IMG/VR virus record: IMGVR_UViG_3300048924_000213
Location: 1 to 33,488 of that record
Length of the DNA: 33,488 nucleotides
Source of the DNA: a virus
Direction: 5' to 3' (one strand)
Part shown: piece by piece, positions 322 to 33,189 of the stretch
Position numbering within the stretch: the first letter of the stretch is position 1
Layout: the number at the start of each line of letters is the position of its first letter
Program-made: the position numbers and the translations under genes
Notes under the pieces: model-generated
Databases searched by the model: none
Seen by the model: the letters and a program-made list of their open reading frames with translations, nothing else
Told to the model about the DNA's origin: nothing

Positions 322-1167
322 TTATGTCTTAGGTCTGAGCGCCTCTATTGCTTTAACGAGAACTTCCAGTTCACCTTTCTCCAATTTTTTTGACTCCAAG
401 ATGTCTAAAGTTTGTCCATCGATTAGCTTTTCAGCATTTGATTTTAATGCAAACTTTTCAACAAAACCTAAGACTTCTTCAGGCTTGGCTTTTTCTATTA
501 TTAACTTCAATATTAATAAGTTTTCCTCTCTTGATCTCTTTAGGGACTCATAATATCTAAATTCATCCATTGTAGATCTATACTGCTTAAGAAAATAAAA
601 TGAAATAAATTCAATAAAAAACAATATCCCAAATTTTGGAGCGTAATGTAATAACTCTGATTTAAAATCCGATTGAATATTATCAATTGTTACTTGCGCA
701 TAAAAAAACAGCAAACCAGCAACAGCGAAGGTGACCCCCATCATCAAATAAACTACACCTCGATTAAATATTGATTTTGATAAATCCTCCGACGACTTAC
801 AAAGATGTGCCATGTAGGCTATCGGACTATCCTTCACCCCTTTAGGGGGTAAAAATTTAGAAATATCAATAGGTTTAAAACGAAAAATAGTTAGAAATGC
901 ATCCTGAAATGGTGATGTTTTACTAATTATTGTATATGCCAATGGCACTAGCATTACCGCAACAGACGAAAAGAGAATGCTCAAATAAGATATATCCATT
1001 GTGCCGTATTTACTTTTCGAAGTAAAAATATCAACCAACGATGTATATCTAAAGATTATAAAGGAAATAAGAAACCACATGAAAAGTTCAAAAACATTAA
1101 CCTTCCCCATGATATACTTTTCATAATAGGTATATTCAGTTATCTCATCACTCACTTTCATCACCAT
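322..1167 (-). CDS. Four-TM membrane protein of unknown function, cargo in the lysogeny operon
   Basis: A 281-residue protein I do not recognise. Hydrophobic segments at about residues 26-42, 59-81, 137-158 and 177-194 predict four membrane spans. They are followed by a soluble, charged, probably helical C-terminal domain (about 198-281) rich in Lys, Glu and Leu. The gene is AT-rich compared with the phage core. Its start overlaps the end of int by 20 bases (second possible ATG six bases later, at 1161), so translation is probably coupled and the gene should be expressed in the lysogen with cI and int. P2 has no gene here. Position and expression suggest an exclusion, immunity or abortive-infection role, but this is inference; no enzymatic motif is visible. 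Confidence 0.8.
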   Translation of the reverse strand: MVMKVSDEITEYTYYEKYIMGKVNVFELFMWFLISFIIFRYTSLVDIFTSKSKYGTMDISYLSILFSSVAVMLVPLAYTIISKTSPFQDAFLTIFRFKPIDISKFLPPKGVKDSPIAYMAHLCKSSEDLSKSIFNRGVVYLMMGVTFAVAGLLFFYAQVTIDNIQSDFKSELLHYAPKFGILFFIEFISFYFLKQYRSTMDEFRYYESLKRSREENLLILKLIIEKAKPEEVLGFVEKFALKSNAEKLIDGQTLDILESKKLEKGELEVLVKAIEALRPKT

Positions 1168-4947: not shown

Positions 4948-7158
4948 TTGGCTATTCAGTTTGCTTACCCGTGGAATACTCCGGGGTCTGCATTAGCCAG
5001 CCCATATCTCACCTATGAGCAACAGCACCGCCGCGACAGAATGTTCGCGGCTTTGCTGCATGCGCGTAAGGCGCTTGCCCATCAGCCAGAGTGTGTGCGA
5101 TTTGAGGTTAACCGCACGGCTACCGTACTGGAGCAAACGCAGGGCAGTGAACGAGCCAATGCCTTTTTAATCAGCTTTTGCAAAAAGGCATTGCCGCGTC
5201 TCGAACTGGTCGCCAAAAAATATGAATCAACCGGCATCAGAAGCGACGTATCTGCCGCTGTTTTCGGCGGGCATTTTGATACTCAGCTAATGCAATATCT
5301 GGCATCACGCATTATGAATATGATTGCCAGATTTAACCGACTCCCGGATATGTCGCGCGCCGATATCGATCTGCTGGCCGGTGACATTGCGAATTTCATC
5401 CGCTCGGAGCTGGCACATATCGACGACGCCGGGTCTGGTGAACTCAAAACGCTTTATACCTGGTACATGCACGCCAGTTTTATCTCGCAACAATTCAATG
5501 TCACCCCTCCTCACTGGGATCGAGTAACAAAGAAATTCTTCGACAAAAATGACATTGCTCCCGCTGTGATCCGGATGTTTACCGAAACATGGTGGCGAGG
5601 CCGTCTGCGTCGTGTCGCGTCTGCGTGGCGCGAACATCTGCAAATTGCTGTCGGTAATGTCAGTAAGAAAAAACATGTCTATGCGAGTAAGAACTGCGTA
5701 ACTGACTGGCGCGAGCAAAAGCGTCGAACGCGTGAGTTTCTCAAGGGGCTTGAGCTTGAGGATGAAGAAGGCAACCGGATTAGCCTGATTGAAAAATACG
5801 ACGGCTCGATCGCCAATCCTGCGATCCGCCGTTGTGAGCTCATGACGCGCATTCGAGGCTTCGAAAATATCTGCAATGACCTCGGCTATGTCGGCGAATT
5901 TTACACACTCACTGCACCATCCAAATATCACGCCACAACCAAAGCGGGATACCGTAACAGCAAATGGAAAGGAGCAAACCCGTCAGATACGCAGGGTTAT
6001 CTCACCAGTCTCTGGGCGCGCATCAGGGCGAAACTGCATCGGGAAGACATCCGCATTTTCGGCATACGTGTCGCCGAACCGCATCATGACGCAACCCCTC
6101 ACTGGCACATGCTCATGTTTATGTTGCCAGAAGATGTGGAGCGGGTTCGCCGCGTCATTCGTGATTACGCGTGGCAGGAAGATAGCCACGAGCTGAAAAG
6201 CGACAAAGCCAAAAAAGCGCGCTTTCACGCCGAAGCGATTGACCCGGAGAAAGGCAGTGCGACCGGCTATGTTGCTAAATACATCTCGAAAAATATCGAC
6301 GGTTACGCTCTTGATGACGAGACCGATGACGAGAGCGGTGAGTTACTCAAAGAGACTGCACCCGCTGTTTCTGCGTGGGCGGCTCGCTGGCATATTCGTC
6401 AGTTTCAATTTATCGGCGGTGCGCCGGTAACGGTTTACCGTGAGTTGCGTCGTCTTGCTGATACAGAAATAGCGCACGGCCTGAGCGTTGAATTTGCTGC
6501 TGTGCATGATGCCGCTGATGCTGGCGATTGGGCCGGTTACGTTAATGCTCAAGGTGGCCCATTTGTTCGCCGTGACGATCTGCAGGTGCGCACGCTGTAC
6601 GAACCGCGTGATGAGTTCAACCAGTATGGAGAGGAAATGGTTTGCATCCGTGGTGTATACGATTCTGAGGTCGGAGCTGGCACCCCAATTTTGACTCGCC
6701 TGACGCAGTGGAAGATTGTTCCCAAGCGTGCCGTTGATTTGGCCGTTGACGTTAAGGGCGCGACCGCGCCCTCTCGGAGTTCTGTCAATAACTGTACGGA
6801 GGAGGAAAATGCCCTACCCAAACTTGATCTAACCAAACCACTAAGTCGGCATGAAAGGCGGCAGCTTACAAACCGACTCAGGGTGAAAAAGCCAGTTCAG
6901 CATCGAAAATTTACTCACGGTAGAGCTGAAAAGAGTGAAGCAATAGAGAGGATAGCCGAAGAGGTACATCTAACCACCGGCATAACCATAAGCCGAGGCG
7001 AAGCTCTGCACCTAATGGCCGGAGGAACAAGCGTCATTGACGGTCATTGGCGAAGAGGAACGGCTAAAGGCGAACTCTTCTCTGCAAGCCCATCTTATGG
7101 TGTAAAAGCCGAAAGAATTCTTAGGCGCGTCTACGCTCTCGCCGAAAAATCGAGGTAA
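4948..7158 (+). CDS. A: Replication initiation endonuclease A (rolling circle)
   Basis: 736 residues (P2 A is 761), Phage_GPA family. It nicks one strand at the phage origin, stays bound to the 5' end through tyrosine and starts rolling-circle replication with host Rep helicase. Visible signatures are the HUH-type metal motif ATPHWHM (His385, His387) and the catalytic pair Tyr441 and Tyr445 in GYVAKYISKNID, matching P2 Tyr450/Tyr454. The reading frame begins with TTG at 4948 behind GGGGGG; an ATG five bases earlier is out of frame. The C-terminal 100 residues, after a basic stretch (LSRHERRQLTNRLRVKK), are less conserved and more AT-rich. The P2 ori lies inside A; I could not place it here. 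Confidence 0.96.
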   Translation: MAIQFAYPWNTPGSALASPYLTYEQQHRRDRMFAALLHARKALAHQPECVRFEVNRTATVLEQTQGSERANAFLISFCKKALPRLELVAKKYESTGIRSDVSAAVFGGHFDTQLMQYLASRIMNMIARFNRLPDMSRADIDLLAGDIANFIRSELAHIDDAGSGELKTLYTWYMHASFISQQFNVTPPHWDRVTKKFFDKNDIAPAVIRMFTETWWRGRLRRVASAWREHLQIAVGNVSKKKHVYASKNCVTDWREQKRRTREFLKGLELEDEEGNRISLIEKYDGSIANPAIRRCELMTRIRGFENICNDLGYVGEFYTLTAPSKYHATTKAGYRNSKWKGANPSDTQGYLTSLWARIRAKLHREDIRIFGIRVAEPHHDATPHWHMLMFMLPEDVERVRRVIRDYAWQEDSHELKSDKAKKARFHAEAIDPEKGSATGYVAKYISKNIDGYALDDETDDESGELLKETAPAVSAWAARWHIRQFQFIGGAPVTVYRELRRLADTEIAHGLSVEFAAVHDAADAGDWAGYVNAQGGPFVRRDDLQVRTLYEPRDEFNQYGEEMVCIRGVYDSEVGAGTPILTRLTQWKIVPKRAVDLAVDVKGATAPSRSSVNNCTEEENALPKLDLTKPLSRHERRQLTNRLRVKKPVQHRKFTHGRAEKSEAIERIAEEVHLTTGITISRGEALHLMAGGTSVIDGHWRRGTAKGELFSASPSYGVKAERILRRVYALAEKSR

Positions 7159-7243
7159 AAATAAACACTAATTTTCATCGATATCATGTACATACATAAC
7201 ATTAAACACGATCTTTTACTTCACATTTTCAATATAAACATGA

Positions 7244-7263
7244 TACTGTACAAACATACAGTA
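7244..7263 (+). promoter_or_regulatory. LexA box upstream of a 60-aa ORF
   Basis: TACTGTACAAACATACAGTA keeps both CTG and CAG half-sites with exactly 10 bases between and flanking TA on both sides, very close to the LexA consensus. It ends 22 bases before the ATG at 7286. In phage 186 a LexA-controlled promoter at the same map position drives the antirepressor gene tum, which makes that phage inducible by DNA damage. Confidence 0.85.
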
Positions 7264-7285
7264 AAAATCCTTTGGGAGGGAATTC

Positions 7286-7468
7286 ATGGTTGGCGAGCAA
7301 CTCAGCCGAACGCAGCAAAAATGGGCATGTGTGCAATTCATCGCGGAGGTCTCGTTGATCGCGAACTGCAAACCATCGGATCTCAAGCTTGCGCTCACCC
7401 TCATTGCTGACCTTGCGCACAGTGAGAACAATGAACCAGAGGAAAACGTCTTTTATAAGGTCGAGTAA
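7286..7468 (+). CDS. Small SOS-controlled protein of unknown function, candidate antirepressor
   Basis: 60 residues, read from ATG 7286 behind a strong GGGAGGG site, just downstream of the LexA box. The sequence has an N-terminal helix (RTQQKWACVQFIAEV), a conserved-looking NCKPSDLKLALTLIADLAH helix and an acidic tail. I do not recognise it. It is shorter than 186 Tum and I see no DinI-like region. Map position after A, LexA control and a repressor without visible self-cleavage together suggest it may inactivate the CI-like repressor. That role is inference; it could also be a conserved SOS-regulated protein with another task. Confidence 0.7.
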   Translation: MVGEQLSRTQQKWACVQFIAEVSLIANCKPSDLKLALTLIADLAHSENNEPEENVFYKVE

Positions 7469-7508
7469 CATCTAAAGGATGTGATATTCAGCACCACTTA
7501 ACCCTGCA

Positions 7509-7551
7509 AACCTCGTTGGCACGAAGACTCGCTGTTTGTGCCAACGAGGTT
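7509..7551. other. Perfect 14-bp inverted repeat with 15-nt loop
   Basis: Arm AACCTCGTTGGCAC (7509-7522) pairs perfectly with GTGCCAACGAGGTT (7538-7551). No T run follows on either strand, so a classical terminator is unlikely. It lies between the SOS-controlled ORF and cos. It could be a protein-binding site of the packaging region, a processed RNA end, or an mRNA-stabilising stem. Confidence 0.75.
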
Positions 7552-7742
7552 GAACAACTCGCTCCGCGAGGCGTTAGAAAATCCCACTCAGATTACGAAT
7601 ATTCAATTAATTTAGCCACGCATCTATAAGGTGCATGGATCTGCATGTTCTTTTGATCTCCTCAGGATCGCCTCACCGGCCCGCTAGGGACAAGGTTAGA
7701 GGTTTGTTGCAGTTGCATTAAAAACGCCCCATAAAGCGGGCA

Positions 7743-7761
7743 GGCGTGGCGGGGAAAGCAT
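7743..7761. other. cos: Phage cohesive-end site (cos), P2/186 type
   Basis: GGCGTGGCGGGGAAAGCAT lies where the P2/186 cohesive ends belong, after the replication module and before gene Q. It agrees with my memory of the 19-base P2/186 ends, differing from P2 at about two bases and looking like the 186 version. The flank continues TGCGCGC as in those phages. The exact nick positions are taken from the family, not visible here. Terminase M/P would cut here for packaging. Confidence 0.8.
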
Positions 7762-7850
7762 TGCGCGCTCGATAAAAAACAAATATTATTTTTATGTTTA
7801 GGAAATATCCTGTTGGAAGTGAAAATTTTGGTTAAAGGACTAAATTAATC

Positions 7851-9404
7851 ATGATGAAAGGTATAGGGTTGCAAAGCTTTAGAAGTTTTGTCGACAAAAC
7901 GTATGTAGAGCTGAAACCAATCACAGTTTTCGTTGGAAAAAACAGCAGTGGAAAAAGCTCACTTCTTCGAACGTTCCCACTGCTTCGTCAGTCAGTAGAA
8001 GAGAATACCACGGGCCCAATACTGTGGTTTGGGCGCCTTGTTGATTTTGGAGATTTTACAGATGTCCTTTCAAGAAGCTCTGAAAACAATGAAATCACAT
8101 TTAGTTTTTCTCTTTTGCTGGCGCCTGAGTCAATACAAAGATATTCATACTATAGATATAACAGTCTCTCAAAATCTCAAATAGCTATTGACACTGAACT
8201 TACTGTATATTCCAAAGACAAAAAAACGAAAACAAAAACCATAAAAATAATAACTGAAGACACAACTATAATCATTAATCTTGATGATAACGCCAATGTA
8301 AAACTGCAAATAAAATCTAAAGATCGGATTATTGATCGTGAAGGTTTAATAGCACGCAACTTAGGTCAATTTATACCTAACATTCAACTCAAACGTAAAG
8401 ATGAAAGTTCGCCAGCTATTCCAGCATTTTATTACCAGTCAAGAAATGACCGCCCCCTAGAACTATCATTCATCGAATCAGCAACAAAATCTATAAAACC
8501 ATATTTCCATGTTAAAACTGTTATATCCCAAGTTTCAGATACTTTTAAAAAAATAGGATTCGTACCTAAAGATGATGCGCAAACAATTATAAAATTCCTG
8601 TTCAGAGAGCAAAAAACATTTAGTAAAAATTTCGAACATCACAGCACGGAAATAATGGATGATCTTTACCCATCTTTAATTGGTTGGAACATAAACAATT
8701 TAATAGATACAGTGAACTCATCTTTGTCAGAATTTTATAAGAATGTTAAATATATAGCGCCTTTACGAGCCACCTCAGAGAGATTTTATCGATTCCAAGA
8801 TCTTCAAGTAAATGAAATAGATCATACTGGTTCGAACTTGGCAATGCTTCTGAATTCACTAAGGCAAGTAGAAAAAACACGCTTTGAAGAATGGACAAAA
8901 TCAAACTTTGACTTTGTGATTAAAGTTGAACAAACAGGTGCTCATTTTGCTATCCTCATCAACACTGGTGAAGGTAAAGAAAACTATAATATCAGTGACA
9001 TGGGATTTGGTTATTCACAAGTATTGCCAATTGTCACAGCTATTTGGTTGGAAACTGAAAGACGAGTTTTAAATTCTAAAAAACCAATTACATTTATAAT
9101 TGAACAACCCGAATTGCACCTCCATCCATCTTATCAATATAATTTAGCAAAAATATTTGCAAAAGTAATAACTCAAGCAAAAGAGAATAATATTGATTTA
9201 AAGATCATTTTTGAGACCCATAGCCAAACAATGATTGAAGCTTTGGGTGAGTGTATCGAAAACAACATGGGCCTAACCGAAGATGATGTATCTATATTAG
9301 TTTTTGAAAAAAATGAATGTCAGCAGACAGAAGTAAGAAACTCATACTTTGATGATGAAGGATTTCTTCAAAATTGGCCTATTGGATTTTTCTCAGGGAA
9401 TTGA
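7851..9404 (+). CDS. DUF3696/OLD-like ABC-type ATPase, first gene of a putative defence pair
   Basis: 517 residues. Walker A is GKNSSGKSS (about 29-37) inside an SMC/OLD-like N-terminus (LQSFRSFVDKT, then ITVFVGKN). A YIAPLRATSERFYRF segment and an ABC signature-like DMGFGYSQVLP (about 384-394) precede Walker B IIEQPELHLHP (Glu418, Glu421) and an H-loop FETHSQTM. A C-terminal FDDEGFLQNWPIGFF ending is typical of DUF3696 ATPases. The middle (about 90-270) is an insertion domain without recognisable motifs. The next gene starts one base after the stop, so the two proteins are made together. The gene is strongly AT-rich between GC-rich phage genes. OLD, Gabija, PARIS and related systems pair such an ATPase with a TOPRIM nuclease; which one this belongs to is not decided. 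ATG 7854 is an alternative start. Confidence 0.9.
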   Translation: MMKGIGLQSFRSFVDKTYVELKPITVFVGKNSSGKSSLLRTFPLLRQSVEENTTGPILWFGRLVDFGDFTDVLSRSSENNEITFSFSLLLAPESIQRYSYYRYNSLSKSQIAIDTELTVYSKDKKTKTKTIKIITEDTTIIINLDDNANVKLQIKSKDRIIDREGLIARNLGQFIPNIQLKRKDESSPAIPAFYYQSRNDRPLELSFIESATKSIKPYFHVKTVISQVSDTFKKIGFVPKDDAQTIIKFLFREQKTFSKNFEHHSTEIMDDLYPSLIGWNINNLIDTVNSSLSEFYKNVKYIAPLRATSERFYRFQDLQVNEIDHTGSNLAMLLNSLRQVEKTRFEEWTKSNFDFVIKVEQTGAHFAILINTGEGKENYNISDMGFGYSQVLPIVTAIWLETERRVLNSKKPITFIIEQPELHLHPSYQYNLAKIFAKVITQAKENNIDLKIIFETHSQTMIEALGECIENNMGLTEDDVSILVFEKNECQQTEVRNSYFDDEGFLQNWPIGFFSGN

Positions 9405-9405
9405 T

Positions 9406-10518
9406 ATGCTAATTAATATTGAGTCTGTGACACGAGATGATGTTTTGAATGAAAAATTCTCTACTGCTATTGAGAATATACTTCGTTCGTTTGCGGAAAA
9501 TAAGCATTTATTAATAGCTCATAAGGATTTCTTTCACTCAATAATATCTGAAGATAAAGGGATTTTTAGCGCGGCCACAAAAAGTACTGCGAGTGAGGCA
9601 TTAAAGGGGCTTCGTGAGTATAAAGCTGTGCTTGGCTTAGTGTCATTTTACGTTTCAGTTAACTTTAAAATACTTGATAATTCCTTTAAGTGGCTAAGCG
9701 TGGGCGATAACGACAAATTCGAGTGTGGCCCTTTATTTTTCAATGATTCTTCTCAACTACAGAAAACAAAAATTGTCTGTGAAAACCCACTGGACTCTGA
9801 TTTCTTTAACATAATAGCCAAACACTATGCTCAAAATTCTGATCTTTCTCGTTGCGCCATTAATTTCAATCCACTAAATGGCGGTGGCGGGAGCACAAAA
9901 GACATTTTTGACCGAACAGTGAAAAACAACGAAATAACATTTTGTATAGTCGATAATGATAAAATGCATCCTCGAGCACCTTTTGGTGGAACAAGTACGC
10001 ATTTTTTAGGAAGCAAGACTAATAAATCAGGGATGATTAAGATTCTTGATGTCCACGAAATTGAATCATTAGTACCGATTGATACAATTGAGTGCGTTCT
10101 TCAGGAACTAAACCTAATGGGAAGAAAAAAGGCTTCTTTAGATTTCTTCAAAAGATTATGCGAGATTGATGAATCTGCAAAGTTTTACTTTGATCATAAA
10201 AAAGGATTTGATCTTAAAACTGCCTGGGAGCTTGATAATACGCATGGTAATTATTGGCGAAACATTATAAAAAGATTAAAGGTCACTGATGCTTGCGAGT
10301 GCATCAATCTCAAAGAGTGCAAATGCAAACCATCGTGCTTGACTTACGAAGGTTTTGGTGACGGATTGCTTACAAACACCTTAAAATATATACATAAAGG
10401 TAATTTAAGGCAATACAAACCAACGTTGCCCCCACAGCTAAATGACAAATGGCATGATCTAGGAAGAAGTTTTTTTAGCTGGAGCTGTGGACCATACAAA
10501 AGAACAAGAGTTAGCTAA
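9406..10518 (+). CDS. TOPRIM-like protein, second gene of the putative defence pair
   Basis: 370 residues from ATG 9406, one base after the ATPase stop; the in-frame upstream ATG at 9349 is rejected because it lies inside the ATPase gene. Residues about 120-225 follow TOPRIM order: Glu126 in VCENPLDSDFF, a glycine-rich turn (NGGGGS, 158-163), the acidic pair Asp183/Asp185 in FCIVDNDK, and a later acidic helix LDVHEIESLVP (Glu218, Glu220) as in OLD/DUF4435-type nucleases. An N-terminal 110 residues of unknown fold precede it. Near the C-terminus five cysteines fall within 15 residues (297, 299, 305, 307, 311), a probable metal site. Function as the effector nuclease of an ATPase-gated antiphage system is inference; the fold assignment is fairly good but not certain. 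Confidence 0.82.
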   Translation: MLINIESVTRDDVLNEKFSTAIENILRSFAENKHLLIAHKDFFHSIISEDKGIFSAATKSTASEALKGLREYKAVLGLVSFYVSVNFKILDNSFKWLSVGDNDKFECGPLFFNDSSQLQKTKIVCENPLDSDFFNIIAKHYAQNSDLSRCAINFNPLNGGGGSTKDIFDRTVKNNEITFCIVDNDKMHPRAPFGGTSTHFLGSKTNKSGMIKILDVHEIESLVPIDTIECVLQELNLMGRKKASLDFFKRLCEIDESAKFYFDHKKGFDLKTAWELDNTHGNYWRNIIKRLKVTDACECINLKECKCKPSCLTYEGFGDGLLTNTLKYIHKGNLRQYKPTLPPQLNDKWHDLGRSFFSWSCGPYKRTRVS

Positions 10519-10524
10519 AAATAT

Positions 10525-10550
10525 AAGGGGGATTCCCCCCTTTTATTTTT
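10525..10550. terminator. Terminator closing the ATPase/TOPRIM operon
   Basis: AAGGGGG (10525-10531) pairs with CCCCCTT (10536-10542) around a four-base loop, followed by TTTATTTTT. It lies between the rightward ATPase/TOPRIM operon and the leftward Q gene and has A/T runs on both sides, so it may work in both directions. Confidence 0.8.
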
Positions 10551-10565
10551 TAAGTCCAGACTTGG

Positions 10566-11591
10566 CTACAACTTATATACCGAAAATTTGACCACATCAT
10601 CCTGCAACCAATAATTAATCTCTTTAAGCCTCTCTTGCAGAGATGCCAATTCATTCCTCACAAACACCTCCGCAGCCTTCACTACATCACCAAACCCACC
10701 CGTGCTATTGGGCATCATCCCCATCATCTGAGGCGGTACACGATGAGCGCTCATCAAGTCTTCCGCACTCACCTTCTTGATATTAAAAAAATCATCCTTC
10801 GTCGCGACTTCGCTCAGCGGCACGATTTTAATGCCGTCAGCCTTGCCGTTCGGCGCGTAGAAAAAAAGATTCTTAAAATTCCCTAGCCCCTTCGAATCAC
10901 GCATAGCCTTGCGTAGTGCTTCGACGTCGGTACTGCTTTGCGCGGCGTCGGTCACATACATGATGTACCCCGCGTGCGCCCCATTCTGATAATACTTACG
11001 GCGGAACAGCGTCGCTGATTCATTTAGCCAGGCTGAATTGAGTGCACTCAGGTATTCTGGCAGGCCGTACACTTCTTGATTGATATCTGGTTCGAGCAAA
11101 TGAAATACCGAGCCCGGAGCAAACTGATGCGGCTGAGAATCCGATTGCATATACCAGTAGGTGTCATCCTCTACCCCGCGCCGGGTGTATTTTGCCGGTG
11201 ACGTCTCCAGCTTGATCGGCTTGCCTGACAGGCTGACTCGCTTCTCGATAAACGCATTACCGAAGACCAGAAAATCGAGCACGAACCGGCTAAAGTCCTG
11301 CTGTGACAGTAATGGGTGCGGTATGTAGGTCGATGCCAGAATATTACGCTTAACGTAAATCGGTGAGCTGTGGTGTACGGCGGCACGCAGGCTTTTCGCC
11401 AGCCCCGAGAAACTCACCGGTGGCTCGTACCATCGCCCGTTATCGACGCACTCCACGTAATCCAAAATATCGCGCCGGTCGAGCACCGCCGTCGGCTCGC
11501 CGAAGGTGAACGCCTCCATGCTCTGAGCTGGCGCGGCTGGCTGATGTGGTTTTGCGGTATATTGGGCTTTCTTGTTGTGACGTTTGCTCAT
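10566..11591 (-). CDS. Q: Portal protein (gpQ)
   Basis: 341 residues (P2 Q is 344), phage_portal_2 family. It forms the dodecameric ring at the head vertex through which DNA is packaged and to which the tail joins. Characteristic segments are FTFGEPTAVLDRRDILDY, the ILASTYIPHPLLSQQDF region, FLVFGNAFIEK and SAHRVPPQMMGMMP, followed by a C-terminal helix. The start is taken at ATG 11591 (MSKRHNKK) because it overlaps the terminase stop by one base (TGATG) and gives the P2 length; a 28-codon upstream extension is rejected. It is co-transcribed leftward with P. Confidence 0.96.
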   Translation of the reverse strand: MSKRHNKKAQYTAKPHQPAAPAQSMEAFTFGEPTAVLDRRDILDYVECVDNGRWYEPPVSFSGLAKSLRAAVHHSSPIYVKRNILASTYIPHPLLSQQDFSRFVLDFLVFGNAFIEKRVSLSGKPIKLETSPAKYTRRGVEDDTYWYMQSDSQPHQFAPGSVFHLLEPDINQEVYGLPEYLSALNSAWLNESATLFRRKYYQNGAHAGYIMYVTDAAQSSTDVEALRKAMRDSKGLGNFKNLFFYAPNGKADGIKIVPLSEVATKDDFFNIKKVSAEDLMSAHRVPPQMMGMMPNSTGGFGDVVKAAEVFVRNELASLQERLKEINYWLQDDVVKFSVYKL

Positions 11592-13360
11592 CAGTTCCAT
11601 TCCATGATTGAGGATGACGGCTGGCCGCTGGCAGCGGTCAGGGGTTCGTTGATTAAGACGTGCATGGTTGCCCATGCCAAATCGGCGTGACTCGCTTCCT
11701 CGGTGCGACTGGCCTCATAGGTGGCGCTGCGCCCGCTGCTCGTCATAGTTTTACGGATAGACATAAACGACTGCGTGAGATCGGTTGCGCCGACGTCGTA
11801 CTCCAGACAGCCACGTGTGATGGTATCTTTCGCTTTAAGCACCATCGCGGTCTTCATTTCCGGCGTGTAGCGGATTTCACGCGCTGCCGGGTAGAACGAG
11901 CGCACGAGCTGGTAAACGCCCTGACCGAGCCCAGTCGCATCGATTCCGATGTATTCAACGGTGTATTTCAGTGTCAGCTCGCGGATGGATTCGGCCTGCT
12001 GTGCGAAGTCCATCCCTTTCCACTGGTGACGTTCGAGGATGCGGAACTTACCACCGGCAACCACCGGAGGTGCTATAACCACGCACCCTGCGCTGTCGCC
12101 GCGCAGTGATGGGTCGTAGCCAATCCATACCGTGCGGTAACCGAATGGACGGTCGGCAAATGGCGCGACATCCTCCCATTTCTCCAGACTGTCAACCATA
12201 CAGCGCTGTAATTCCTCGAACGGGAAGACCGATGCTTTATCGTCGACGAACTCGCACATAAACAAATTACGGAAGTCATCCGTGCTGTTTTCTTGTTTGA
12301 GTGTGTCGATGTTAAACAGCGTGCATCCCCCGGTGAGCGCATCTTCTATGGTGACAATCTGCCTCCACTGGCCGTCCGGGCAGGCAACACCTTTCGCCAG
12401 TGCCGCGTGTGTGATGTCGATGTCAACACGGTCGCCAGCATTGGCCCGACCACGATTGAACAGTTCACCTGACCAGAACGCATAAGCGCCATGCCCCAGA
12501 GATGAGGGGGTCGAAAAATAGGTCGTGCGCAGATGCTTCTGTGAGGCCATGCCCGAGGCGACTTTTCGCAGTCGCTGGAAGTTGGGGATCCAGAAAATCT
12601 CATCGACGTACAAATCGCCGTTATGACTCTGCGCAGTGTTGGAGTTGGTGCCGAGAAAAATCAGCTTCGCACCGTTGTTACCGATGATGATCGGATCGCC
12701 AGTGAGCTCCACCTCGGCGAGCTTTGCAAATTGGATGATGTACTCGCGGAAGACATAGGCCTGCGTTTTACTGGCCGACAGGAAAATCTGATTGTTGCCG
12801 GTCTTCAGCGCCCTCATTAGCGCCTCACGTGCAAAGTAGAACGTCGCGCCAATCTGGCGGGATTTCAGGATATGGCGGATACGATGTGCCAACCCGGCGC
12901 GATACCAGTCGAGCTGGTAGTCGAATGACTGGTCGAGGAAAACCTCGTCGAGTTTCTCGATGGCTTCGTCGCTGAAGAAATTCTTCTTAGGCTTCTTCTT
13001 CTCACCCTTGTTGCGGTTGGCAACGTTGGGGTTTAAATCCACCTCGTTGCCGGTCTGACCGTAGCGATTGACCCGTGCAAGCCGCTCCATCTGCCGCGCC
13101 AGAAAATCAGCGACCTTGAAATCGTGTGCCGTCAGGTCGGGTTTTGCATAGAGCTGGATCAGCCTCGCTTCGAGCGTAGTTTCGACTCGCGTCAGAGGCG
13201 CTGTCGCTTCCCATTTGTCTCGCTGTTTCCAGCTCTGCACCGTGGGGCGTTTGGTTTGCAACATATCCGAGATTTGTGGCACAGAAAATCCTTGCCAGAA
13301 CAGCAGCGCCGCCTGTCGTCGCGGATCGCTCAGAAGTGTGGTGTCAGTGGTGATGGTCAT
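11591..13360 (-). CDS. P: Terminase large subunit, ATPase (gpP)
   Basis: 589 residues from ATG 13360 (P2 P is 590); an ATG ten codons upstream (13390) is less likely because a GGCGAGG site precedes 13360. It pumps DNA into proheads and cuts cos with M. A phage-type HTH (VPQISDMLQTKRPTVQSW, about 27-44) opens the protein. Walker A-like KSRQIGATFYF lies near 166-176 and Walker B LYVDE near 250-254. An RNase H-like nuclease begins at IGYDPSLRGD (Asp416). The motif set is that of P2 terminase. Confidence 0.96.
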   Translation of the reverse strand: MTITTDTTLLSDPRRQAALLFWQGFSVPQISDMLQTKRPTVQSWKQRDKWEATAPLTRVETTLEARLIQLYAKPDLTAHDFKVADFLARQMERLARVNRYGQTGNEVDLNPNVANRNKGEKKKPKKNFFSDEAIEKLDEVFLDQSFDYQLDWYRAGLAHRIRHILKSRQIGATFYFAREALMRALKTGNNQIFLSASKTQAYVFREYIIQFAKLAEVELTGDPIIIGNNGAKLIFLGTNSNTAQSHNGDLYVDEIFWIPNFQRLRKVASGMASQKHLRTTYFSTPSSLGHGAYAFWSGELFNRGRANAGDRVDIDITHAALAKGVACPDGQWRQIVTIEDALTGGCTLFNIDTLKQENSTDDFRNLFMCEFVDDKASVFPFEELQRCMVDSLEKWEDVAPFADRPFGYRTVWIGYDPSLRGDSAGCVVIAPPVVAGGKFRILERHQWKGMDFAQQAESIRELTLKYTVEYIGIDATGLGQGVYQLVRSFYPAAREIRYTPEMKTAMVLKAKDTITRGCLEYDVGATDLTQSFMSIRKTMTSSGRSATYEASRTEEASHADLAWATMHVLINEPLTAASGQPSSSIMEWN

Positions 13361-19375: not shown

Positions 19376-20740
19376 ATGGAAGAGAAAAAGTATCAAGTTT
19401 TTGTAAGCTCAACTTACGAAGATTTGTTTCATGCGCGTAAAAAAATTATAGAAACAGTGTTGAGTTTATATCATTTTCCAGTTGGCATGGAAATGTTTAG
19501 TGCAGATGATTCAGAACAGTGGGAAATAATTAAAGAGACGATTGAAGGTAGTGATTACTACGTAATAATCATTGGCCAAAAATATGGTTCGATTGCAGCG
19601 TCAGGATTGAGTTATACAGAAATGGAGTATGATTATGCTAAGTCTCTTGGGATACCGGTGTTGGCATTTATTCGTAACCGTGAAGTAGATACGAAACCTC
19701 ATGAGAGAGAGCGAGATGTTAATAAAATTGAACAGCTTGAGCTTTTTATAGAAAAAGCTAAGGCTAATAAGATGTGCGATTTTTGGGATTCAATGGACGA
19801 TTTAGCCACTAAAGTAGCAATCGCATTACCTAAGATAATGAGGAGAACACCCAGGATTGGATGGGTCAGGGGGGATCAAGCTACATCAAAAGAAATATCC
19901 ACTGAGCTTGCTGAGCTATCAACAGAAAACAGATTATTGAGAGAGAAAGTTAGGGCTTATGAAAGTCGACTGCATACAGATGCTCCTATTCTAAATTTGT
20001 CAATGATAGATGATGATTTGGAGTTGACTCTTGCCAGGAATGTTACTGTTCAACCTTATATGAATGTATTGGCTATGGATGATATTCCGGACTCTTATCG
20101 AGGGGCGGTTTCGGAGGAAAAACTTCGGAAATATAATGAAGCTATACCGACTAAAGAAAAAGTAGATTCGTATAATAAGAAATTCTTTTTGCATTTATGT
20201 TATCAAGAGCACAGTGTTACTTTTAATCCTGTTCTTGAAAATGTCGGGAAAAAATTAGCGACAGATGTCTATATTCACATCGAACTTCCGAGTTTTTTGG
20301 TTGCGCTTAGTGACGATAACAAAAAGATTTTTACAGAATTACCAGTAATAAATATCCCAGAAACTCCAATGGCAGAGATTGATAGGCTAAATGCTGCTAG
20401 GAATAGTTTGGATTCGTTCAGACAGAGGTTGATTCTTGGGAAGTTTGGAGGTGCTGAGGATGGCTATGTGTTAAGTGGGCATAGGGCGTCAAATATGCTT
20501 GATAGTTCAGTAATGGACTATGTCAACAAAATTAGGCCGCTTAACGCAACGGATTGGGTCGATTATGATAAAGGCCGAATAGTATTAAGAGCAAAAAAAT
20601 TATTACAGAGTTTAACGGTAGAATTCGATAGTGTCACATTAGTTCCAATTGCTGAGGGGCAAGGGACAATAAATTTCAAAGTGGTTTGTGAGGAGCTAAA
20701 AGAACCAATCACCTTCAGCCGTAATGTAATAGTCTCATAA
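19376..20740 (+). CDS. DUF4062 (TIR-like fold) protein, cargo between S and V
   Basis: 454 residues, AT-rich, behind a clear GGGAGG site. The first 150 residues are a DUF4062 domain: YQVFVSSTYEDLF at the start, SDYYVIIIGQKYGSI (59-73), SYTEMEYDYAKSLGIPV (79-95, acidic Glu82/Glu84) and AFIR. DUF4062 shares the TIR/nucleoside-deoxyribosyltransferase-like fold and occurs in proteins linked to antiphage defence. A coiled coil (about 174-199, ELAELSTENRLLREKV) links to a 250-residue C-terminal region of beta-rich appearance that I do not recognise. The position is that of P2 orf30, a known variable place among the late genes. It points with the late operon, so late read-through is possible, but it may have its own promoter. 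Whether it cuts NAD or a nucleotide is unknown. Confidence 0.9.
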   Translation: MEEKKYQVFVSSTYEDLFHARKKIIETVLSLYHFPVGMEMFSADDSEQWEIIKETIEGSDYYVIIIGQKYGSIAASGLSYTEMEYDYAKSLGIPVLAFIRNREVDTKPHERERDVNKIEQLELFIEKAKANKMCDFWDSMDDLATKVAIALPKIMRRTPRIGWVRGDQATSKEISTELAELSTENRLLREKVRAYESRLHTDAPILNLSMIDDDLELTLARNVTVQPYMNVLAMDDIPDSYRGAVSEEKLRKYNEAIPTKEKVDSYNKKFFLHLCYQEHSVTFNPVLENVGKKLATDVYIHIELPSFLVALSDDNKKIFTELPVINIPETPMAEIDRLNAARNSLDSFRQRLILGKFGGAEDGYVLSGHRASNMLDSSVMDYVNKIRPLNATDWVDYDKGRIVLRAKKLLQSLTVEFDSVTLVPIAEGQGTINFKVVCEELKEPITFSRNVIVS

Positions 20741-32343: not shown

Positions 32344-33189
32344 TCAGAATGGTATATCATCTGAAAAATCAATAGGAGCACCTTGTAACTCATGCTTTAA
32401 CCTGGGCTTTGACAAAATCGCTTCATTTTCAAGTAGTTTATCAATTCCAGCGTCGGTAATCGCATATGCGTAAAACTCATCGCCATTATTGTTATCAATT
32501 TGCAATGAACGCTCAATGAGAGACATACGTTCCAATTTAATTAATTGAACTGTAACGATTTGCTCTTCCATCTCTTTTAAAGACCAGATAATTGAGGATG
32601 AAGATATTCCACCTGGGTACTTTGTATGGGTTTCTAAGCAAGCAGCAAGAACCTTAATTGCCGCCTCATTAAGCTGATATTCATATGGATTTACAATTAC
32701 TTTCTCATTTATGCCAAGAGATATACGGTTTAACGTCCCTTGTGATTTCATCGCTGTGCGCATTTTATGGCACGCAGGGAATAATGCGGCATCGAAATTA
32801 TCATCTGACCTTTGTGAGTCATACTCAGCCAATGTTATACCTAAAAGATCACTTGGCAATTTTAACTCTTCATCTCGGGGTTTTACGATGAAACATCGTT
32901 TAACCCCAATGGCACCAATAAATAAACCCAGTTCAAACAAAACATTATCTCGCACGACATGTTCTTGTTTGCCTCTAGATTCGGTAAGATCATCAGGTTG
33001 AAAAACAAACACAGCAAAATCAGTAGTTGCCGATCTCATTACAAGATCACTTATTGTTGTACTTGATAACCTAAAGTTCCCACTACTCCACGGGGTCACT
33101 TCATAATCATGTTCAAAGTCTGTACTTATAGCTCGTACTACTGACAAACTCTCACTTGATGAAGCTATAAAAATCTTCGGCTTGACCAT
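32344..33189 (-). CDS. TIR-like nucleotide-hydrolase-type protein with C-terminal winged helix, cargo at the old locus
   Basis: 281 residues. The first 130 residues match the TIR-like nucleotide-binding family (PF10137, as in Pycsar/CBASS TIR effectors): KIFIASSSESLSVVRAIS at the start, DFAVFVFQPDD (57-67) and the hallmark VVRDNVLFELGLFIG (78-92), with Glu86 at the NADase glutamate position. Residues about 170-258 look like a winged helix (NEAAIKVLAACLETHTKYP, then QLIKLERMSLIERSL, then YAITDAGIDKLLE), a place for sensing or DNA/partner binding. The gene is AT-rich, leftward, with AGGAG before its ATG, and sits between ogr and attR, the location of P2 old. A standalone NAD-depleting defence protein is the leading idea; activity and trigger are inferred. 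No cyclase or partner gene is nearby. Confidence 0.88.
   Translation of the reverse strand: MVKPKIFIASSSESLSVVRAISTDFEHDYEVTPWSSGNFRLSSTTISDLVMRSATTDFAVFVFQPDDLTESRGKQEHVVRDNVLFELGLFIGAIGVKRCFIVKPRDEELKLPSDLLGITLAEYDSQRSDDNFDAALFPACHKMRTAMKSQGTLNRISLGINEKVIVNPYEYQLNEAAIKVLAACLETHTKYPGGISSSSIIWSLKEMEEQIVTVQLIKLERMSLIERSLQIDNNNGDEFYAYAITDAGIDKLLENEAILSKPRLKHELQGAPIDFSDDIPF

Follow-up and report, generated by a model that had tools for sequence, protein, structure and literature searches.

An OLD-type ATPase and a divergent TOPRIM-type protein as a probable phage-exclusion module in the cos-proximal slot of a P2-like prophage

In a P2-like prophage, the replication gene A (4948-7158) is separated from the portal gene Q (10566-11675, minus strand) by two genes, encoding an OLD-type ABC ATPase (gene 1) and a divergent TOPRIM-type protein (gene 2), which most probably constitute a two-gene phage-exclusion (abortive-infection) defence module of ATPase and TOPRIM nuclease design, carried as prophage cargo. 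The prophage comes from an IMG/VR record, which is 33,488 bases long and is referred to here in its entirety as the window, and its closest named phages are 77-81% identical to it over part of its length. This reading is favoured because of the family and fold of the ATPase, the profile homology of its partner to TOPRIM proteins and catalytic residues that stay invariant at ~23% identity; because the genes are paired in 25 of 25 loci, decay jointly in three copies, occupy a known defence hotspot between A and Q and are carried by mobile elements; and also because a CAP12/Pycsar-type TIR effector is encoded elsewhere in the prophage. An antiphage role for the pair is therefore likely, and the pair is a distinct branch within an already known type of immune system, not an altogether new one.

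In the mechanism that we propose, the ATPase would sense infection, having until then held the metal-dependent TOPRIM nuclease inactive; on triggering, it would release or activate its partner, which would cut either tRNA, as PARIS does, or DNA, as OLD and Gabija do, with the consequence that growth and phage production stop. More tentatively, the pair may represent a separate class of split OLD systems, in which a large insertion in the ATPase would serve as sensor and a TOPRIM effector with a zinc-binding element would choose the substrate, without DUF262 or helicase and with spread mainly by temperate phages, although we hold this extension to be somewhat doubtful.

The locus and its borders

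The left limit of the cargo slot is the cos core (GGCGTGGCGGGGAAAGCA, 7743-7760, plus strand; 0 expected by chance), and 26 of 26 bases from 7743 equal the annotated cos end of Erwinia phage EtG. Homology to EtG and to Klebsiella phage RCIP0057 (92%) reaches 7768 and ends there, and on the right side of the cassette backbone similarity resumes only inside Q, from 10720, from which it follows that the cassette forms a discrete insert immediately beyond cos. The corresponding cos-to-Q gap of EtG measures only ~180 bases and holds no gene. The earlier note, made from the letters of this DNA, had described an AT-rich two-gene operon between cos and Q with a single base between its genes and a terminator of its own, and each element of that description holds: gene 1 occupies 7851-9404 and gene 2 9406-10518, both on the plus strand, with GC contents of 32-37% against 51-60% for the phage backbone, and a G+C-rich terminator-like hairpin with T-tracts on both strands (10523-10546) lies between gene 2 and Q and closes the cassette. 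Terminator-like sites in the region number 7 against 2.4 expected; a promoter scan was at chance level (11 found, 10.9 expected) and no promoter is claimed. A retron or guide RNA reading was dropped, as positions 7000-10800 gave no Rfam match, and tRNA genes were absent from the window.

Comparison of the window with the E. coli form of the pair gave pN/pS values of ~0.16/0.78 for gene 1 and ~0.24/0.84 for gene 2, with synonymous sites near saturation and non-synonymous change much lower in both. With pN so far below pS, both genes encode real proteins under selection, which, together with the invariant motifs described below, rules out the reading of the cassette as a decayed passenger.

The ATPase

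The product of gene 1 (517 residues) is an ABC ATPase of the OLD/Rad50 type whose C-terminal domain is DUF3696; it is presumed to be the sensor and controller of the pair. The earlier assignment of an OLD-like ABC ATPase with DUF3696 agrees with Pfam (AAA_15 6.6e-28, AAA_21 3e-19 and DUF3696 8.8e-6, the last at 26.3 bits, above the Pfam cut-off of 22), with the motifs and with the fold, the AlphaFold model (pLDDT 77.8) resembling Rad50, SMC heads, retron ATPases and GajA, with E-values of 1e-12 to 1e-8 for Rad50, retron ATPases and GajA. The Walker A motif (GKNSSGKS, G29-x4-GKS, residues 29-36; 7935-7958, plus strand) is at least 90% conserved across 13 relatives, its columns being nearly invariant rather than invariant only since one aligned relative is truncated there. 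In the ABC signature-like motif (SDMGFGYSQ, residues 382-390; 8994-9020, plus strand), S382, D383, M384, G385, G387, S389 and Q390 are invariant in the relatives' alignment, as are F415 and I417-E421 of the Walker B region (FIIEQPE, residues 415-421, with IIEQPE at 416-421; 9093-9113, plus strand); an ETHS sequence stands at residues 455-458. Gene 1 thus has the AAA_15/AAA_21 domains, Walker A, signature, Walker B and H-loop of an OLD-type ABC ATPase, and its nucleotide-binding motifs are all retained across the 13 relatives.

The best PADLOC models for gene 1 are NsnB of Menshen (174 bits) and PDC-M55A (153 bits), both of which are matched by 13 of 13 relatives. A match to the PADLOC model of AriA, the PARIS ATPase (109 bits), was discounted, as the AriA profile has the length and behaviour of a generic AAA_15 domain.

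The TOPRIM-type partner

Gene 2 encodes 370 residues from an ATG at 9406, one base past the stop of gene 1, and would be the nuclease effector of the module. It has no convincing sequence match in Pfam, NCBIfam, PHROGs or PDB; searches of PDB sequences with the profiles of gene 2 and of PDC-M55B, the TOPRIM-like member of the PADLOC phage defence candidate PDC-M55, returned chance matches only. Profile comparison with hhalign joins gene 2 to PDC-M55B (probability 96.9, E 1.6e-10, 190 columns), and joins both to a set of single-chain ATPase-TOPRIM proteins (E 8.6e-6 for gene 2, 2e-8 for PDC-M55B), which themselves match GajA profiles over a stretch that extends from the ATPase into the TOPRIM part, and match the Pfam OLD-like TOPRIM family weakly, below its cut-off. 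The proteins compared with gene 2 came from two genomes. Single-chain proteins of ~550-600 residues (L040, 1390-3120, minus strand; L041, 244-1887, plus strand; L060, 1270-3060, minus strand) combine an OLD-type ATPase with a gene-2-like TOPRIM part and are a possible link between single-chain and split forms.

The AlphaFold model of gene 2 is confident (pLDDT 90.4, pTM 0.89) and has the strand-helix order expected of TOPRIM at residues 121-220. Foldseek returned nothing at E < 0.001; the best E-value was that of GajA (4.7e-3, TM 0.17), the highest probabilities those of the C-terminal region of XccOLD (0.75, E 0.083) and of retron Eco2 (0.54), and a BFVD fold search gave nothing useful. Residues were compared by aligning 20 members of the branch with 11 PDC-M55B proteins. 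Glu126 (9781-9783, plus strand), at the end of the first TOPRIM strand, is a predicted metal ligand found in 20 of 20 branch members and 11 of 11 PDC-M55B proteins. D183-x-D185 (9952-9960, plus strand) would supply further ligands, Asp183 being present in 31 of 31 sequences and Asp185 in 30, with Glu in one PDC-M55B protein; the predicted second metal site is H217-E218-I-E220 (10054-10065, plus strand), in which E220 is kept in 31 of 31 and E218 in 20 of 20 of the branch. Residues E126, D130, G160, G161, D183, E220 and P224 are invariant across all 31, and E126, D183, D185 and E220 persist in relatives down to ~23% identity. In Thermus OLD the metal A residues are E377, D431 and D433 (PMC7049728), which E126, D183 and D185 parallel in a Glu ... 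D-x-D ... E-x-E pattern. Every motif that the earlier note had named in the two genes is accordingly present and conserved.

With a Glu after the first strand, a later D-x-D, an acidic second metal site and alternating strand-helix order, gene 2 is best described as a divergent TOPRIM-type protein, an assignment of fold that draws on profiles, motif order and a confident model and that upholds the initial description of it as TOPRIM-like. The same note had considered that gene 2 might form a separate branch, distinguished from a plain DUF4435 protein by a long N-terminal part and a cysteine cluster. The separate branch stands, by virtue of its own ATPase clade, its cysteine motif and its lack of DUF262; the N-terminal part as an addition to DUF4435 does not, since the nearest relatives are PDC-M55B proteins rather than DUF4435, and PDC-M55B proteins likewise have ~100 residues ahead of the catalytic Glu. 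The cysteines, C305-x-C307-x3-C311 (10318-10338, plus strand) with C361 (10486-10488), form a candidate zinc site. The C-x-C-x3-C motif is whole in 16 of 20 branch members, wholly absent from four divergent ones (L004, L006, L098 and L100) and absent from PDC-M55B, and C361 is kept in 18 of 20; an initial impression that the four cysteines come and go as a unit was given up, since L098 and L100 keep C361 without the motif.

Linkage and distribution

The two genes were tested for linkage from both sides. A search with gene 2 recovered 13 viral loci with gene 1 directly upstream in each, and a search with gene 1 recovered 17 viral loci with gene 2 directly downstream in each; in total the genes adjoin in 25 of 25 loci, comprising the viral loci together with the window, the E. 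coli form, phage 62-2, two plasmids, Pectobacterium, Morganella and one further genome. The earlier interpretation would have been undermined had homologues of the two genes never occurred together, and the opposite is the case. In three decaying integrated copies (L001, L002 and L038, namely those of Pectobacterium and Morganella and L038 itself) both genes are broken together.

In at least 11 loci the pair occupies the A-Q interval of a P2-like phage, with a Q 42-85% identical to that of the window. In L034 and L038, the latter with both genes broken, the pair stands in this slot of distant P2-like phages but is inverted relative to A and Q, and the occurrence of both orientations implies that the pair entered the slot more than once or was flipped there. 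This cos-proximal slot is a published defence hotspot of E. coli P2-like phages, where P2 itself has old and tin and where other systems have been shown to defend (PMC9122126). The present pair shows that the slot also accommodates counterparts of P2's own Old divided over two genes, and does so in P2-like phages whose portal proteins are down to ~45% identical.

Beyond this slot, the pair also occurs on a filamentous Pseudomonas phage, other temperate phages, two plasmids and chromosomal islands; as read by eye from the sequence, the Morganella copy lies near a P4-like primase gene and the Pectobacterium copy near an integrase. In the filamentous phage (Pseudomonas phage 62-2, 12.6 kb) the pair sits beside the repressor and next to a cytosine methyltransferase gene, is annotated as a rad50 ATPase and an OLD family nuclease, and has a gene 2 without any of the four cysteines. 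Amongst 5,426 complete E. coli genomes the intact pair is present in 39, and as 35 of these 39 copies are mutually at least 99% identical, few independent events are indicated. The E. coli form, for which NZ_AP021944.1 (1813802-1816473) is an example, is ~70% identical to the present cassette at the DNA level. Elsewhere the pair is rare, with 2 cases in 392 family-level genomes and a single clear one, identified by profile, among 369 class-level genomes. The annotation sets tried miss or misname the branch: the E. coli form is a 'hypothetical protein', and the effector has no Pfam or NCBIfam match.

Placement among known systems

A maximum-likelihood tree of 39 ATPases separates the present branch (16 sequences, support 100/99), PDC-M55A (11, 97/96) and NsnB (12, 100/99) by supported branches; its root is not fixed and its branches are long, and the order of divergence is not read from it. 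Partner genes track these clades, NsnB occurring with NsnC, PDC-M55A with PDC-M55B and DUF262, and the present branch with gene 2. DUF3696-type ATPases would on this evidence be a set of clades each keeping its own partner (NsnC; TOPRIM and DUF262; TOPRIM alone), a view that joins candidates hitherto loosely described.

By sequence, the pair belongs with split OLD-type systems as a branch of its own, to which the computational candidate PDC-M55 stands closest, and is not PARIS by membership. PDC-M55 (A, ATPase; B, TOPRIM-like; C, DUF262) has the same succession of a homologous ATPase and a homologous gene 2, and the B protein shares with gene 2 the Glu, Asp, GG, D-x-D, Glu and Pro residues. 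The present branch differs in lacking a DUF262 gene, in its longer ATPase (~490-575 against ~380-500 residues, by open frame) and in a gene 2 that has E218 beside E220 and usually C-x-C-x3-C and that scores only 16 bits with the PDC-M55B model, far below the usual detection score. Menshen (NsnA/NsnB/NsnC) resembles the pair in its DUF3696-type ATPase, but NsnB falls in a separate clade, the pair here has no DUF262 gene, and comparison of NsnC with the gene 2 and PDC-M55B profiles gave no match; identity with Menshen was rejected for want of an NsnC partner. P2 Old (Class 1 OLD) and Gabija GajA likewise unite an ATPase with TOPRIM, and P2 old lies in the same A-Q slot (PMC9122126), but both are single-chain whereas here there are two genes and no GajB helicase gene. 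Gabija was rejected on this architecture, the ATPase and TOPRIM being split and the next gene being phage Q rather than a UvrD-like GajB. PARIS (AriA/AriB, Class 4 OLD) is similar in having an OLD-type ABC ATPase and a TOPRIM nuclease as separate genes and in being carried in mobile-element hotspots; there, the TOPRIM nuclease AriB is held by the ABC ATPase AriA until AriA senses a phage protein, whereupon AriB is set free and cuts host tRNA (PMC11455837, PMC12409363). It is likely that the present pair follows the same control logic. A literature search found no experiment on members of the branch. The supplement of Rousset 2022 reportedly lists 169 P2-hotspot systems, and the E. coli version may be among them.

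Alternative explanations

Carriage on mobile elements that include plasmids and phages would also suit an addiction (toxin-antitoxin) module that keeps the prophage or plasmid in place, with gene 2 as toxin, gene 1 as its restraint and defence secondary or absent, and PARIS, where AriA sequesters AriB, has itself been called a toxin-antitoxin system (PMC11455837). We nonetheless consider this unlikely, given a slot known for exclusion genes and three integrated copies that have decayed in both genes. Addiction antitoxins are usually small and labile, unlike the large ATPase of gene 1 with its conserved catalytic motifs. Still harder to accept is an accessory for recombination, repair or replication of the phage's own DNA, built from a Rad50/RecF-like ATPase and a nuclease: whilst the model of gene 1 is most like Rad50 and SMC heads, the pair is missing from related 186-like phages (EtG, for instance, has a cos-to-Q gap free of genes), is present in unrelated elements with different replication, and is rare (2 of 392 family-level genomes), all of which renders such a role very improbable.

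The two remaining alternatives concern which defence system is present. That the pair is a PDC-M55 system minus its DUF262 gene, working by the same route as the three-gene form, draws on the homology of genes 1 and 2 to PDC-M55A and PDC-M55B; DUF262 is, however, directly downstream in every PDC-M55B locus examined (12 of 12), whereas none was found near any branch locus tested, with flanks that are short for some loci and for L025 above all. As the branch ATPases and PDC-M55A also form separate, supported clades, an old separate form is indicated rather than a recent loss, and we give a shared route only a slim chance, whilst noting that it is compatible with the main explanation of the pair as a defence module. 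A true PARIS system, comprising AriA and a DUF4435 AriB, has the same two-gene logic and the gene 1 match to the AriA model in its favour, a model itself close to generic AAA_15, but it founders on the defining effector domain: AriB is DUF4435 and gene 2 is not, having no Pfam match to that family and reaching only 4.4% in profile comparison with the DUF4435 set made here. Gene 2 as DUF4435/AriB was ruled out on these grounds, and true PARIS is the least probable of the explanations weighed.

Other possible cargo of the prophage

Three further stretches of the window may represent cargo. Next to the integrase (1148-2185), in a stretch of 35% GC, a gene at 322-1167 (minus strand) encodes a membrane-type protein of 281 residues that has no Pfam or PADLOC match and is perhaps another cargo gene. 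Between the tail genes S and V, which are only 69 bases apart in phage EtG, a gene of ~38% GC at 19376-20740 (plus strand) encodes a DUF4062 protein of 454 residues (PF13271, 1.7e-27) with no PADLOC match, and the tail operon may here contain another cargo slot. In the low-GC end, immediately to the right of ogr, a gene at 32344-33189 (minus strand) encodes a 281-residue protein with a CAP12/Pycsar-type TIR domain (PF10137, 1.5e-31; PADLOC CBASS TIR effector, 166 bits); no cyclase gene for it was recognised within the window, and it is probably a second defence cargo of this prophage.
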